NCBI GenBank assembly: GCA_000697665.1
Contig: KL197734.1
Coordinates: 22,290 to 84,837 of the forward strand
Origin: Jaapia argillacea MUCL 33604
Lineage: Eukaryota; Basidiomycota; Agaricomycetes; Jaapiales; Jaapiaceae
Direction: 5' to 3'
Length of the DNA: 62,548 bases
Below are positions 4,562-50,990 of this stretch, one piece after another. How positions within the stretch are numbered: the first letter of the stretch is position 1; each line of letters opens with the position of its first letter. The notes beneath the pieces were generated by a model. The model did no database searches. It was not told the DNA's origin and was given only the letters and a program-made list of their open reading frames with translations. A program made the position numbers and the translations under genes.

Positions 4562-4701
4562 TCTTTATGCTGTTCGGGACTGTAGCGTTTGGTGGACGTA
4601 TCATCATTGTAATTTCTTGTCGATGAAAACACAGAAGGAGACTCAGAATCTATATTTCGTGTTCTTTATCACGAATGGTACATGAATATCAGAAGAGGCC
4701 T

Positions 4702-11851
<7,150 letters not shown>

Positions 11852-30584: not shown

Positions 30585-33492
30585 ATGTCTGCCATCCAAG
30601 ATGTTGCTCGAGTCGTCGACGTCGAAGACGAAACCACCTCCGAAGCTGGCCATCGGGAAGTCATCGATATCATGGCGCTTCGAGCCAGCTGCCCTCAGTT
30701 CCGAATCCTCGTCATCGGGAAAGCCAATGCAGGGAAGACGACCATCCTTCACAAAGTGTGTAACGCAACGCCCGAGACCAAGCCGATTGTCTATGATCAT
30801 CGCGGCAAAAAAGTACGTTTTGATCACCTTAGGGATTGCGAGCCGACAGTGCTGAGAGTCTCTCAGTTGAGGAAGTCCTGGTTCAAAAAGCCAACTTCAC
30901 AGGTTTGAACTGCTTCTGGATTCGCGATTCATAGACGAGAGTGACATGTTCTCTTCGATGGCTAGCGTGGAGAGCACAATATCGAGTACCAAATCACCTT
31001 CCCCGGAAGTCACTTTATATTCCATGACTCCCGTGGGTTTGAGTCAGGATCTGTAGAAGAGATGGAGATAGTTCGGAACTTCCTTAAGGAGCGGTCTGAC
31101 CATGGCAGTTGAAGGACAAAGTACATGCAATTTGGTGAGAATTGATGTTCCGAGAATTTCGTGACTTATGTACAATTGTATTCAGGTATTGTGTTCCGAT
31201 GGATGATGCCCGACCACTTTCAGACCCGGAATTGAGCTTTTTCAAGGAAGGAACTTGGGGGGGTAAGCTCTTTATACGGGAGCAAGGTGAAGTCTAACTT
31301 GTCAATCTCCCCAGTTCCTGTGATTGCAATCTTTACCAAATTCGATGCTCAAATTCTTCAGGCTTTTGCAACACTTGAGGATAAGGATTACAATATTGAG
31401 GAAGCAAACCGAGAAGCTGCTAAATTTGCAGAGATAACCTTTCAGAAGGAGTATTTATCCAGGTTGAAATCAGTGCCTTATCAGCTGAAGGGATGGATGT
31501 GTCTGAAAGGTAATTTAAGCTGCTAATAGGCCCTTCTATAAATATATGGCTGATGAAATATCCACAGATATGGATAAACCAGAAAACAACTGTTCTGAAC
31601 TTGTTGAAAAGACTGCTGCTGCCATTGATGACAATGATTTGCGCAGCTTGTTCATTTCTGTACAAGCAAAAGATTTAAAGCTTAATATTAAACAAGCAAT
31701 CAGGTATTGTGGTAAAATTGGTTATATGGTATGGCATTAACAGGGATGACCTTTTAGAAATGCACTTAACGTGACTGAAGAAGCAATTGATCAAAGGTTG
31801 GGTTTTGAAGTGCTTCTACTGTTTCCAAAATTCTGGGTAAGTTATCAGCCATATTGACTGGTAGTTGAAGTGAGGTACTAAAATCTACTAGGATGTGAGT
31901 ACTATGCTGATAGATCTAGACATTAGACTCATTATTTGAGTTTGGTGGTGTTCATGGCCTATTAGGAAGTAAGTGCTTAGATGAGGGTCACTTACCTTAT
32001 ACTCATTACCTGATCTGCTTTTACTGGCTTTTATTACCTGCTAGTATGTGAGTGCTTAGATGAGAGTCATTTATCTTGTGCTCATTGCCTGATCTGCTTT
32101 TACTGGCTTTTATTACCATCTAGTTTGTGAGTGCTCAGATGAGGGTAATCTATCTTGTTCTAATTGCTTAACCTGCTTTTGCTGCCTTTCATTGCCTACC
32201 AGTCTGTGAGTGCTCAGATGAGGGTGGTCTATCTTGCACTCATTACCTGACCTGCTTTTGCTGCCTTTCATTGCCTATCAGTTTGTGAGTGCTCAGATGA
32301 GGGTGGTCTATCTTGCACTCATTCCCTGACCTGCTTTTACTGCCTTTCATTGCCTATCAGATTGTGAGTGCTCAGATGAGGGTGGTCTATCTTGCACTCA
32401 TCACCTGACCTGCTTTTGCTACCTTTCATTGCCTACCAGGATGTGAGTGCTCAGATGAGGGTGGTCTATCTTGGACTCATCACCTGACCTGCTTTTGCTG
32501 CCTTTCATTGCCTATCAGTGGGTGAGTGCTCAGATGAGGGTGGTCTATCTTGTACTCATTACCTGACCTGCCTTTGCTGCCTTTCATTGCCTACCAGGAT
32601 GTGAGTGCTCAGATGAGGGTGGTCTATCTTGGACTCATCACCTGACCTGCTTTTGCTGCCTTTCATTGCCTACCAGGCTGTGAGTGCTCAGATGAGGGTG
32701 GTCTATCTTACACTCATTATCTGGCCTGCTTTTTCTGCCTTTCATTGCCTACTAGCAAGTGAGTTCTCAGATAAGGGTGGTTGATCTTCTTCTCTCTCAT
32801 GGATTAATTTTTGGCCTCCATTGTTTAATAGGAAGTTTGTGGTTTTGTTACTCATGTGTACATGACACTTACTACTAAATCTGCTCCAATTCTTCTCCTC
32901 TCTACCTCTAGATTGTAAGTTTCAAGTGGCTCTGATTTTCACACTGTAGCTATGGTTTAATTCACTGCTTTCAGATTATATGCATACTCAACATCACTAT
33001 GCACTCCTTTATCCCACCTTCACTTTTATATCATATTCTAGGATTCATGTCTCATTGACTTGAAGTCAGCTCTCAGGTTTGAAACCACTAATTTTGTAAG
33101 TACTTATTTACTTACTTCATTTTTCACTCCACTTATTGATCCCTTTAATCAGTATTTCCCCTCAACCTATATCTATGCCCTTGCTGGTATTCTCACTCCA
33201 ATTTACATCTTTTTTACTGTTCTCACTTTATGTACTAGTCATGCTTATAATTGGCGAGCATGCTCAGAAGTTGTATGAACCCACCTTTTCCAAAGCATTC
33301 ACCAAGGCCAGCAAACAATGTCAAACTTCTGGAAAAATCCAGAATCTTCAAGGCTGTCTTCAGAGCAGCTTCAATTCTACTAGGTCTAATGAGGAGACTC
33401 ATGAATGGCTTTTTCAACAAGTGGTCCAAAACCTACTGGTATTTTTATTATTATCAGCCAGCTTGATTTTACTTAAGCATTTCAACTTATAG
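30585..33492 (+). CDS. G-domain (P-loop GTPase-like) protein carrying a single-codon exon array
   Basis: Exons 1-6 (30585-30812, 30966-31134, 31186-31262, 31315-31509, 31568-31703, 31758-31836) encode the GTP-binding domain: P-loop GKANAGKTT, HDSRGFESGS, LKDKVHAIW-YCVPMDD, G4 IFTKFD. Then come 14 candidate 3-nt exons (31892-32914). C-terminal exons are 33042-33095, 33153-33186 and 33239-33492, giving a hydrophobic segment (TYIYALAVMLIIGEHAQKLY) and a helical tail, a layout typical of this family. The three last exons total 342 nt and stay in frame with the array. Exons 1-6 total 884 nt, one short of a frame: a -1 frameshift lies near 31100-31108, just before LKDKV. It may be sequencing error or damage, or be bypassed by a weak alternative intron 31094-31185 that restores frame but deletes LKDKVHAIW. 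About 422 aa. Confidence 0.7.
31892..32914 (+). repeat. array of 14 single-codon (3-nt) exons in a 79-nt periodic intron array
   Basis: Candidate exons and codons: 31892 gat, 31966 gaa, 32045 tat, 32124 ttt, 32203 tct, 32282 ttt, 32361 att, 32440 gat, 32519 tgg, 32598 gat, 32677 gct, 32756 caa, 32832 gaa, 32912 att (coordinates are first bases). Each is preceded by AG and followed by GT. Introns starting at 31969, 32048, 32127, 32206, 32285, 32364, 32443, 32522, 32601 and 32680 are all 76 nt; the flanking ones are 55, 71, 73 and 77 nt and largely unrelated in sequence. The last is 127 nt (32915-33041), or 60 nt with a further att at 32975. Each repeated intron has GTGAGT or GTAAGT, a CTGAC-like branch site in most copies and a pyrimidine-rich YAG end. 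All codons are phase 0 after TTC TGG at 31836. The encoded peptide would be DEYFSFIDWDAQEI. Splicing is inferred, not observed. Confidence 0.65.
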
Positions 33493-33549
33493 CCTCTTTG
33501 AATATCTCCACATCTGGCTTCAAATTCAACTTCATGTTTTTTCTGTTTA

Positions 33550-33938
33550 CTGTACCATTTCGATCACTTCGGCATGTCACACGTCACAAGGCCCTCTGCC
33601 GGACGAATTTTAGGTGTTGGTCACCAGTCACCGGGACCCCTGCCGAATCGAAAATTCGGTTGTCACAAGGCATGACATTTCAAAAAATCGCCCAGGTACA
33701 TTTCTGGGCTCGATTTTGGCGTTTTCGGGGCTGTTTGATGCCGTTTTCGTGCTAATTGGGCTCATTGCTACTGGTAGCATTGCACTAAAGTGGTATAACA
33801 TCCAAACAATACAATTTCACCCACCAAGTGCCGAAATTTTCATTTTGTCACAGGCCTCAATGCAAAGTGCCGAAATGACGAATCGAAACTTCGTGGTCAC
33901 AGGTCACAAGCGCTGCCGAAGTGATCGAAATGGTACAG
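33550..33938. mobile_element. MITE, Tc1/mariner-like, 389 bp
   Basis: Perfect 25-bp terminal inverted repeats (33550-33574 and 33914-33938, starting CTGTACCATTTCGATCACTT) flanked on both sides by TA (33548-33549 and 33939-33940). Internal sequence is rich in GTCACA/TGCCGAA motifs in both orientations and has no coding capacity. TA duplication and length fit a non-autonomous Tc1/mariner element. It sits 57 nt past the stop of the array gene, in its 3' UTR or downstream intron. Confidence 0.85.
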
Positions 33939-33940
33939 TA

Positions 33941-49197: not shown

Positions 49198-50990
49198 TAG
49201 TGTACGGGGAATTTGGGCTTGTTAATTAACATCGGTTGATTAACATGGGTAAATCAACGTTTATCAACCCGCTCAACCAAGACCTCCAGAATGACAGGGT
49301 AAATCTTGGTTAATTTGAGTCCATCGTTAGAGACCGATGCGCCACTCAATTAGGCAAGCACTCAGTACCGGAAGACTTGAAGCATCAGCTCAGAAGTTAT
49401 GCGAAAGGCGAGGAGCCTTCCAACCGTAAGTTTCGGGAAGGTGAAACCAGTCAGGATTGGGCAGTGGAAGGCTGTCCAGATCGCCATTCCTTCGAGACAT
49501 TTTTTCCGATTCTGCATTAGCTGTCGAGAAGCTGGTTCAAATCTCACAGACAAGGGGGGTCAGACGGGTACCACCGATCCAGCCAAGACCACCGCAAGCC
49601 GGAAGTTAGATTGGGGCAATTCTGAGGGTCTTTCACCCCTCGTACCGTCAGAATGGGTCTGAACGTCGATTCGGTGTAATTGACTGGTTAATTAGGGCGA
49701 ATTTTACCAGGGGTATATACACAAATCGTAAGATCGTAAGATCGGCTAACGGCGAATGCTTACGTTTTGAGTCATTCTTCCCGGGCTCTCGGGAGGCTTC
49801 TCGGAGAGGTATCTGCAGCTAAAAATACCCGGATTTCTGAATTAGGCAATAGCACAATATAATTGTAAAATCAACCAGCAAAAGGGAAATGCTTCTTCAG
49901 GAGCAGACTAATACCCAGAGAAAGTCAAAGAAATATCAGTCATTAGGGGGATTAGATGGCTTTTTGGGTATCAATTCAAGCAAAAACTATTAACCCAGAT
50001 TCTTCAAACCAACTAACTGAGCACTAATTTTGCTGTCAGGGATTGCACCCCCGAACCCTCACTGGAGGCGTCTCCCAGACTTCCCTAGCTCTAACCAGCC
50101 TAACTCTAACATTGGGGGTTCCACCCCCAAACCCCCATACTGGGGGTATCCCCCAGACCCCCCTAACACCAACCAACCTAACTCTAACCTCAAGGGTTAC
50201 ACCCCCGAACCCCCATACTGGGGGTATCCCCCAGACCCCCCTAACATTAACCAACCTGCCTCTAACCTCAGGGGTTACACCCCCGAACCCTGTACAGGAA
50301 GTATCCCCCAGACCCCCCTCACACTAACCAACCTAACTCTAACTTTGGGGGTTACACCCCCAAACCCCCATACTGGGGGTATCCCCCAGACCCCCTCACA
50401 CTAACCAACCTGACTCTAACCTCAGGGGTTCCAACCCCAAACCCCCGATACTGAAGATATCCCCCAGACCCAACTATAACCAACCCAACTCTAACCTTGG
50501 GGGTTGCACCCCCAAACCCCCCAGAAACGAGACAGCAATGTCCCTCTGCCGAGCAATGGACCTAACTTTAACCTAACCTAACCAACTACCAGGGAGGATA
50601 CACCTCCAAACCCCCAGAATAACTATACTGAATTGCAGTTACAATGTATTGTCACTTCTTGCCTGCGGAAAGTCCATCAATCCCGGGAGAATGAGCTAAA
50701 TAATCATTTTGCATATTTTTACTCAATCCGCTAAAAATAGGAGCACGTGACAAAGCAGAATCCTGTCGTTGCACGGGCGGAGGCCACCGCTCGCTTAGAT
50801 AAATTTGGCCAGGCACCATCTTACGATTTACGATTTGTGTCACTACCTTTTTACCAGTTAATTAGCGTTGATTTACAGATAGTACCCGCCGTTATTTTAC
50901 AGTCATTTACATGGGTTAATCTCGTCGTCCTCGCTCGGCCTGGTAAATTTACTGGTCAGTTTCGGAGGATCTGAAATTCCCCGTACACTA
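49198..50990. mobile_element. non-autonomous hAT-type DNA transposon, 1793 bp
   Basis: Ends are inverted: TAGTGTACGGGGAATTT at 49198-49214 and its reverse complement at 50974-50990. Both ends are flanked by an exact 8-bp duplication GTTCCGTA (49190-49197 and 50991-50998), the hAT signature size, and TIRs starting TAGTG suit hAT. Subterminal DNA is rich in GTTAAT and GGTAAAT motifs in both orientations. No transposase frame exists; the centre is a G/C-rich minisatellite. An intact duplication suggests recent insertion, between the two membrane-protein paralogues. Confidence 0.88.
50030..50525. repeat. hairpin-forming minisatellite, about 7 units of 75-78 bp
   Basis: Successive GGGGTT anchors fall at 75-78-bp steps from about 50043 to 50504. 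Each unit joins a TAACCAACCTAACTCTAAC-like spacer, a GGGGGTTNCACCCCC arm and, in most units, the palindrome CTGGGGGTATCCCCCAG. Both can fold as hairpins and the G runs could form quadruplexes. It lies wholly inside the hAT element. Confidence 0.85.

Follow-up and report, generated by a model that had tools for sequence, protein, structure and literature searches.

The closest described counterparts of the gene architecture investigated in this study are the expanded NACHT-ANK (nank) genes of the truffle Tuber melanosporum, reported in 2012 (Fungal Biol 116:261, as cited in PMC4986451, PMC3689799, PMC10197012 and PMC9815663). In the passages of the citing papers that concern them, these genes are described to contain tens of codon-sized, alternatively spliced 3-bp exons, for which a role in diversifying a recognition domain at the C terminus was proposed. 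A second point of reference is provided by the WD-repeat NLR genes of Podospora (hnwd, HET-D/E/R), which, in an excerpt of the same literature, are portrayed as carrying repeats under concerted evolution with a few hypervariable positions under diversifying selection (PMC4986451). The splicing of 3-nt exons appears feasible since, according to the available text of the respective reports, even exons of a single nucleotide are spliced accurately in APC11 of Arabidopsis (PMC4674806) and, in a fungus, in CYP621A of Fusarium (PMC12940212). As far as these texts describe them, both tiny exons occur singly and, unlike the exons described below, not in arrays. Runs of small symmetric exons are also characteristic of fast-evolving genes such as the schistosome micro-exon genes and the aphid bicycle genes, whose exons encompass more than one codon and are not separated by near-identical intron repeats. 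In a search of the literature, we have seen no report of arrays of single-codon exons from GTPase genes, nor from any basidiomycete.

The locus described here is found in Jaapia argillacea MUCL 33604, within a stretch of 62,548 nucleotides (contig KL197734.1, positions 22,290 to 84,837), which we refer to as the window and to whose first letter positions in the gene relate. A first-pass annotation of this stretch had proposed a gene with 14 consecutive single-codon exons and had stated that no gene built from such a run has been described, a view that does not stand in light of the tens of 3-bp exons reported in the excerpts on the truffle nank genes. The kind is already known from truffle NACHT-ANK genes, and its occurrence here is a striking variant, not wholly new. 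As far as the excerpts allow a comparison, both systems share the tens of 3-bp exons, the affiliation with an expanded family of P-loop NTPases and the presence in a filamentous fungus, and 3 of the 33 listed array places of the present genome also stand after NACHT-type matches. In contrast to what these sources describe for truffle, 25 of the 33 follow matches to G-domain GTPases in a genome of the Agaricomycetes, an affiliation also indicated by 46 matches to DUF6533 (present in 0 of 14 control genomes), and the gene in the window matches the family MMR_HSR1 and did not qualify as NACHT. The architecture reported for truffle is now seen in a GTPase family, in a second fungal genome with about thirty array places. 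Beyond the comparison that the truffle excerpts permit, the variation of codons against that of introns is measured in this study, with splicing predicted from the genomic sequence. The arrays share with the Podospora genes, in the form in which the excerpt presents them, the alike repeats with a few hypervariable positions, but whereas the constant part of the repeat there forms a protein scaffold, it is here an intron that would be spliced away to leave the variable codons behind. The intron beside every codon offers a built-in yardstick. To judge from the sequence, the architecture is real and remarkable, and it most likely encodes a hypervariable peptide with one codon per exon.

Table 1. 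Exons, introns and array units of the G-domain gene, with positions in the window.
Feature	Position	Strand	Basis or remark
Exon 1, G-domain gene	30585-30812	+	translation, paralogue matches, MMR_HSR1 match of the typed protein
Exon 2 (LRKSWFKKPTSQ)	30867-30902	+	similar to type-A paralogues by eye
Exon 3, DSRG motif	30966-31134	+	paralogue comparison
Exon 4 (YCVPMDDARPLSDPELSFFKEGTWG)	31186-31262	+	paralogue matches
Exon 5 (PVIAIFTKFD)	31315-31509	+	paralogue matches
Exon 6 (DMDKPENNC...IKQAI)	31568-31703	+	matched in 15 other family segments
Exon 7, phase 0 end at PKFW, directly 5' of the array	31758-31836	+	paralogue matches
Intron preceding the first single-codon exon	31837-31891	+	55 nt
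Array units 1-5	31892 GAT, 31966 GAA, 32045 TAT, 32124 TTT, 32203 TCT	+	
Array units 6-10	32282 TTT, 32361 ATT, 32440 GAT, 32519 TGG, 32598 GAT	+	
Array units 11-14	32677 GCT, 32756 CAA, 32832 GAA, 32912 ATT	+	
Last array intron	32915-33041	+	127 nt
Exon after the array, phase 0, DSCLIDLK (DSCLIDLKSALRFETTNF)	33042-33095	+	matched in 2 paralogues
Additional tail exon (YFPSTYIYALA and one base)	33153-33186	+	conserved block by eye, phase
Last exon, C-terminal, hydrophobic stretches, ending in a stop codon	33239-33492	+	paralogue matches

The properties of the array are reflected in the 14 trinucleotides, each located between an AG and a donor, that were found on the forward strand between 31892 and 32914 when the region 31837-33041 was read and scanned (Table 1). 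The 13 introns between them measure 71, ten times 76, 73 and 77 nt, and the repeat is recognized by Tandem Repeats Finder with a period of 79 nt and 10.6 copies. Our rescan bears out the earlier observation of 14 consecutive AG-NNN-GT units with ten introns of exactly 76 nt, and also that the edge introns, among them those of 71, 73 and 77 nt, differ from the repeat while preserving the 3-nt spacing. The proposed phase 0 of the array is equally in place, with the preceding exon ending in phase 0 after PKFW, a feature matched in five other type-A loci, and the following exon opening in phase 0. In translation, the 14 triplets encode the peptide DEYFSFIDWDAQEI. The donor following the codon GAA at 32832 (GTTTGT) is weak. 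The last array intron contains cag-ATT followed by ATATGC, whereas ATG or ATT precedes GTATGC at this place in C30:97001, C30:285001 and C8, and the window gene may have lost a unit of its array here. Unlike the interior codons, which vary among paralogues, the edge codons, part of which rest on weak splice scores in C4, C8, C13 and C32, are partly common, with CAA and the final ATT, for example, being found in the window (with GAA between them), in C30:285001 and in C8. A reading of the array as continuous coding sequence was rejected, the longest stop-free stretches in the six frames of 31837-33041 extending over 36-59 codons.

The array is embedded in a gene whose upstream exons encode a G domain, in which we take the sequence GKANAGKTT in exon 1 to be the P-loop, and PVIAIFTKFD in exon 5 presumably contains the TKxD motif. 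The typed G-domain protein, which comprises 258 residues of which about a dozen differ from those of the window, matches MMR_HSR1 (PF01926) between residues 40 and 133 with 27.3 bits at a cut-off of 21.9. A PDB sequence search with the G-domain protein retrieved weak matches only (best GTPase Der, E 0.0022), and PADLOC returned two weak matches for the typed protein (best mad8, E 1.2e-4) and zero for a NACHT-type piece. Compared to five of five type-A paralogues, exon 3 of the window copy has one base fewer at about 31098-31110. The G-domain frame of this copy is broken as assembled and an intact frame was not found, which reflects either a dead copy or an assembly error; by eye, the paralogue C30:97001 reads through the same region. 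The continuation of the reading frame claimed in the first-pass annotation is thus retained across array and tail, but not in exon 3, and the tail, which consists of three exons, requires 33153-33186 for its phase, an exon that was absent from the earlier C-terminal model.

Similar arrays are abundant in the genome to which the window belongs (43.7 Mb, 95 contigs). With the window array as DNA query, we have obtained 12 matches, all of which are located in arrays (C26, C30, C53, C8 and C1), and those that were fetched obey the triplet rule. The genome was further searched with a pattern consisting of a donor, 58 to 84 nt, AG, NNN and another donor, with the reversed pattern serving as control. 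A spacing of 3 nt gave 377 matches compared to 49 in the control, with no excess genome-wide for 4 nt (110 versus 113) or 6 nt (96 versus 98), where the first donor was GTGAGT in the 3-nt pattern and GTRAGT in the other two, each compared to its own reversed control. Of the spacings 3, 4 and 6, an excess is thus seen for 3 nt alone, and 2 of the 110 matches at 4 nt adjoin arrays (C24:181067 and C32:136211). For defined triplets, the respective numbers are 53 versus 0 for GAT, 63 versus 5 for TAT/TTT and 46 versus 6 for GVA, with a few of these matches lying outside arrays. The pattern TRR matches 8 times compared to 10 in the control; seven of the matches are TGG in arrays and the sole stop is a TAG in C5 that is part of no array.

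By hand, at least 33 array places were compiled from the matches listed. Among these, C24:401945, C13, C20 and C48 are represented by one listed match each and C50:133864 by two, with C13, C20 and C48 having been admitted for an array-type intron beside the single match, whereas lone matches without such an intron (such as C9, C10, C44 and C49) were left out. The G-domain matches are located on the same strand, 157-2801 nt upstream of their 25 arrays, the NACHT-type (NPHP3_N) matches 1.2-1.6 kb upstream of their three, and the remaining five listed places are assigned to neither type. Conversely, 12 of 37 listed G-domain places showed no array. Compared to the 14 codons in the window, the longest chains comprise 33 codons in C6, 24 each in C3 and C30, and 22 in C22. 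The latter (C22:368001-372300, L078) is located 3' of a NACHT-type gene and has a modal intron length of 67 nt, and two more arrays on C22 also stand after NACHT-type matches. The NACHT-type piece of L078 alone is below the Pfam cut-off (NPHP3_N, E 0.03) and the model exceeds it in the adjoining C22:372191-372598. This model also matches 9 of 14 prokaryote controls. The label rests also on motifs recognized by eye. Elsewhere on C22, matches extend over 3.9 kb (597928-601811), many of them spaced in multiples of 70 nt, and this is possibly the longest array with an estimated 50 or so units. One exact pattern of the window intron type has zero matches in IMG/VR.

Whether the triplets behave as codons was analysed in a set of 194 triplets from 18 chains in 15 of 17 genome segments, five of the segments containing N runs. 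The segments C30:285001 (with an irregular array) and C1:519175 (ending in N) contributed no chain, and a 16th codon of C53, at the contig end, lies outside its chain. None of the 194 triplets is a stop, compared to 10.1±2.4 (minimum 3 in 2000) when positions are shuffled within arrays. If the frame is slid along the unit, 7 of the 24 alternative offsets, in conserved parts of the intron, are likewise free of stops. The absence of stops is therefore meaningful only in view of the high variability of the triplet, with the shuffle test carrying the weight. Different but synonymous pairs are rarer than in shuffles (28 versus 49±9, P 0.0055) and pairs of identical codons more frequent (173 versus 102±9.5 in position shuffles), the latter indicating that the triplets act as units, to which shared descent could contribute. 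Third positions are T in 113, A in 48, G in 29 and C in 4 cases, and the commonest codons are GAT (32), TTT (19) and TAT (13). On the basis of sequence, the assignment of the triplets as exons of one codon each, set between regularly spaced introns, is well supported. In one array on C3 (1749506-1754040, L022-L037), codons for D and L alternate (DMDLDLDLD), as in an amphipathic strand.

A pronounced feature of the arrays concerns the relationship between codons and introns. In a divergence table that leaves out chains of fewer than four units and odd-length introns, the pairwise divergence within arrays of at least seven units is 10-28% for intron cores (72-90% alike) and 56-76% for the first two triplet positions, except for 40% at position 2 in C32. 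Pairs of introns less than 3% apart have the downstream codon in common in 0 of 13 and the upstream codon in 1 of 13 cases, the 13 pairs not being independent of each other, and in the other divergence bins the downstream codon is common to 5-10% of pairs, with 6.4% at random. Codons and introns vary nearly independently, although not wholly so, since the flanks of same-codon pairs are slightly more alike in seven of eight arrays (0.103 versus 0.131 in C30, a raw difference). Adjacent codons are identical in 13 of 140 cases compared to 13.3 by chance, and there is thus no direct trace of a duplication of units. In the eight arrays, neighbouring introns are slightly more alike than distant ones, with distance counting more in the window array, C3 and C8. 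The left and right halves of introns correlate in C8 (0.54), C3 (0.48) and C26 (0.93), with little correlation in the remaining five arrays. Informative intron variants are nearly unlinked in C30, C53 and C6 and somewhat more linked in C3 and C22. Transitions account for 65-80% of the changes from the intron consensus, and those from C to T and from G to A are over-represented in six arrays (122 versus 40 and 51 versus 14, respectively, in the introns of C6). This pattern can be explained by recombination of units or by recurrent mutation. Tandem duplication combined with ordinary drift was rejected as the whole story, as introns that are almost the same seldom carry the same codon and adjacent codons coincide no more often than by chance. 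The bias towards C to T and G to A is reminiscent of repeat-induced mutation.

The fetched introns fall by eye into five types, which are mutually unlike apart from their splice signals and all of which accompany 3-nt exons. They comprise the window type, a type found in C3, C6, C1:1058k and C4, another in C12, C27 and C13, a fourth in C18 and C32, and a fifth in C22. Modal lengths range from 67 to 76 nt, and GC-AG introns account for gaps of double length in C12 and C13. The donor is GTRAGT in 176 of 194 units, a count favoured by the selection of chains on splice-site scores and spacing (not on the triplet), the acceptor is CAG or TAG in 193 of 194, and, in six arrays, most units have a branch-like CTNAY at a distance of 12-45 nt from the 3' end. 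The six introns 5' of exon 7 are 51-63 nt long and none has a GTRAGT donor (GTACGT, GTTTGA, GTGAGA, GTAAGC, GTAATT and GTATTG), and GTAAGT is found in the intron at 31837, just before the array, and in that at 33096. Strong donors in the array seem to compensate for the absent exonic signals. Since every array exon is symmetric and in phase 0, the frame would be kept if one or several of them were skipped. An irregular junction was noticed in C30:285001-295000 (L013), where, near 4661-4893, a single nucleotide separates two 76-nt introns, which would cause a frameshift unless skipped.

We consider it probable that the array encodes a hypervariable peptide following the G domain with one residue per exon, which is diversified by recombining introns and which likely serves in non-self recognition. 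The window gene would be a member of an MMR_HSR1-type GTPase family, about 25 members of which would carry arrays between G domain and tail. Each residue of the array would be encoded by its own 3-nt phase-0 exon and spliced into the mRNA, with strong donors permitting the removal of the short introns one after another despite the tiny exons lacking exonic signals. The alike introns could act as homologous spacers, in which recombination adds, drops and reshuffles codons while the frame is kept. Selection for changed residues would render the codons diverse and conversion would keep the introns alike, and alternative splicing could enlarge the repertoire by in-frame skipping of exons, as is reported for the truffle genes. 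The resulting peptide might offer a fast-evolving recognition surface for non-self, with the GTPase acting as switch. More tentatively, and in our view rather doubtful, the arrays could constitute a generator of receptor peptides in which recombination handles are combined with a choice of exons and which operates in the unrelated families of GTPases and NACHT-type NTPases for non-self recognition. The handling of up to 33 successive 3-nt exons by the spliceosome and the use of introns as handles for the shuffling of single amino acids both become testable. Such genes may often be misannotated, as both gene prediction and read mapping have difficulty with exons of 3 nt.

The alternatives to a recognition peptide of this kind are not all mutually exclusive. 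It is unlikely that the array is a minisatellite within a single intron of 1205 nt, whose triplets never enter the mRNA and whose splice signals are inherited from a duplicated intron. Any donor could join any acceptor and a skipping of the whole array is possible in frame, which, together with the broken exon 3 of the window copy, would accommodate this scenario. Still, variation in a plain repeat is not expected to approach saturation in precisely the three letters that separate AG from GT, and such a repeat would accept stops, which are missing from the codon set. It also would not account for a rule that is kept in several dissimilar intron types, in at least 33 array places and in the edge introns of the window array, in line with the initial argument that a plain minisatellite would not extend its spacing to unrelated neighbours. 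Somewhat less remote is the possibility that the triplets are included in the mRNA but act as a frame-neutral spacer, with a sequence that is relaxed and not selected for change. The narrow composition, with few codons and T at the third position dominating, and the excess of identical pairs would be compatible with a spacer, but a relaxed site should have stayed linked to its intron, whereas introns less than 3% apart have different codons, and the deficit in synonymous differences also argues against relaxation.

A different kind of alternative concerns the origin of the arrays and is compatible with a recognition peptide encoded by the present gene. Mobile, introner-like introns might have invaded an uninterrupted exon at each codon boundary, in which case the codons would be old and the introns recent. 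This would conform to a codon identity that hardly depends on intron similarity and to the resemblance between introns, which in most of the eight arrays is scarcely greater for neighbours than for distant units. We regard it as improbable, since spliced introns may sit in any phase, yet spacings of 4 and 6 nt are not in excess, and since all 12 matches obtained with the window array as DNA query are confined to arrays and the flanks of same-codon pairs are slightly more alike in most arrays. In addition, no uninterrupted homologue was met in our search within this one genome.

Besides the array, the window contains other repetitive features. Just 3' of the G-domain gene, perfect inverted repeats of 27 nt, 339 nt apart (33548-33940), resemble a MITE-like element, and another tandem repeat, with a period of 78 or 233, is located at 50036-50521.
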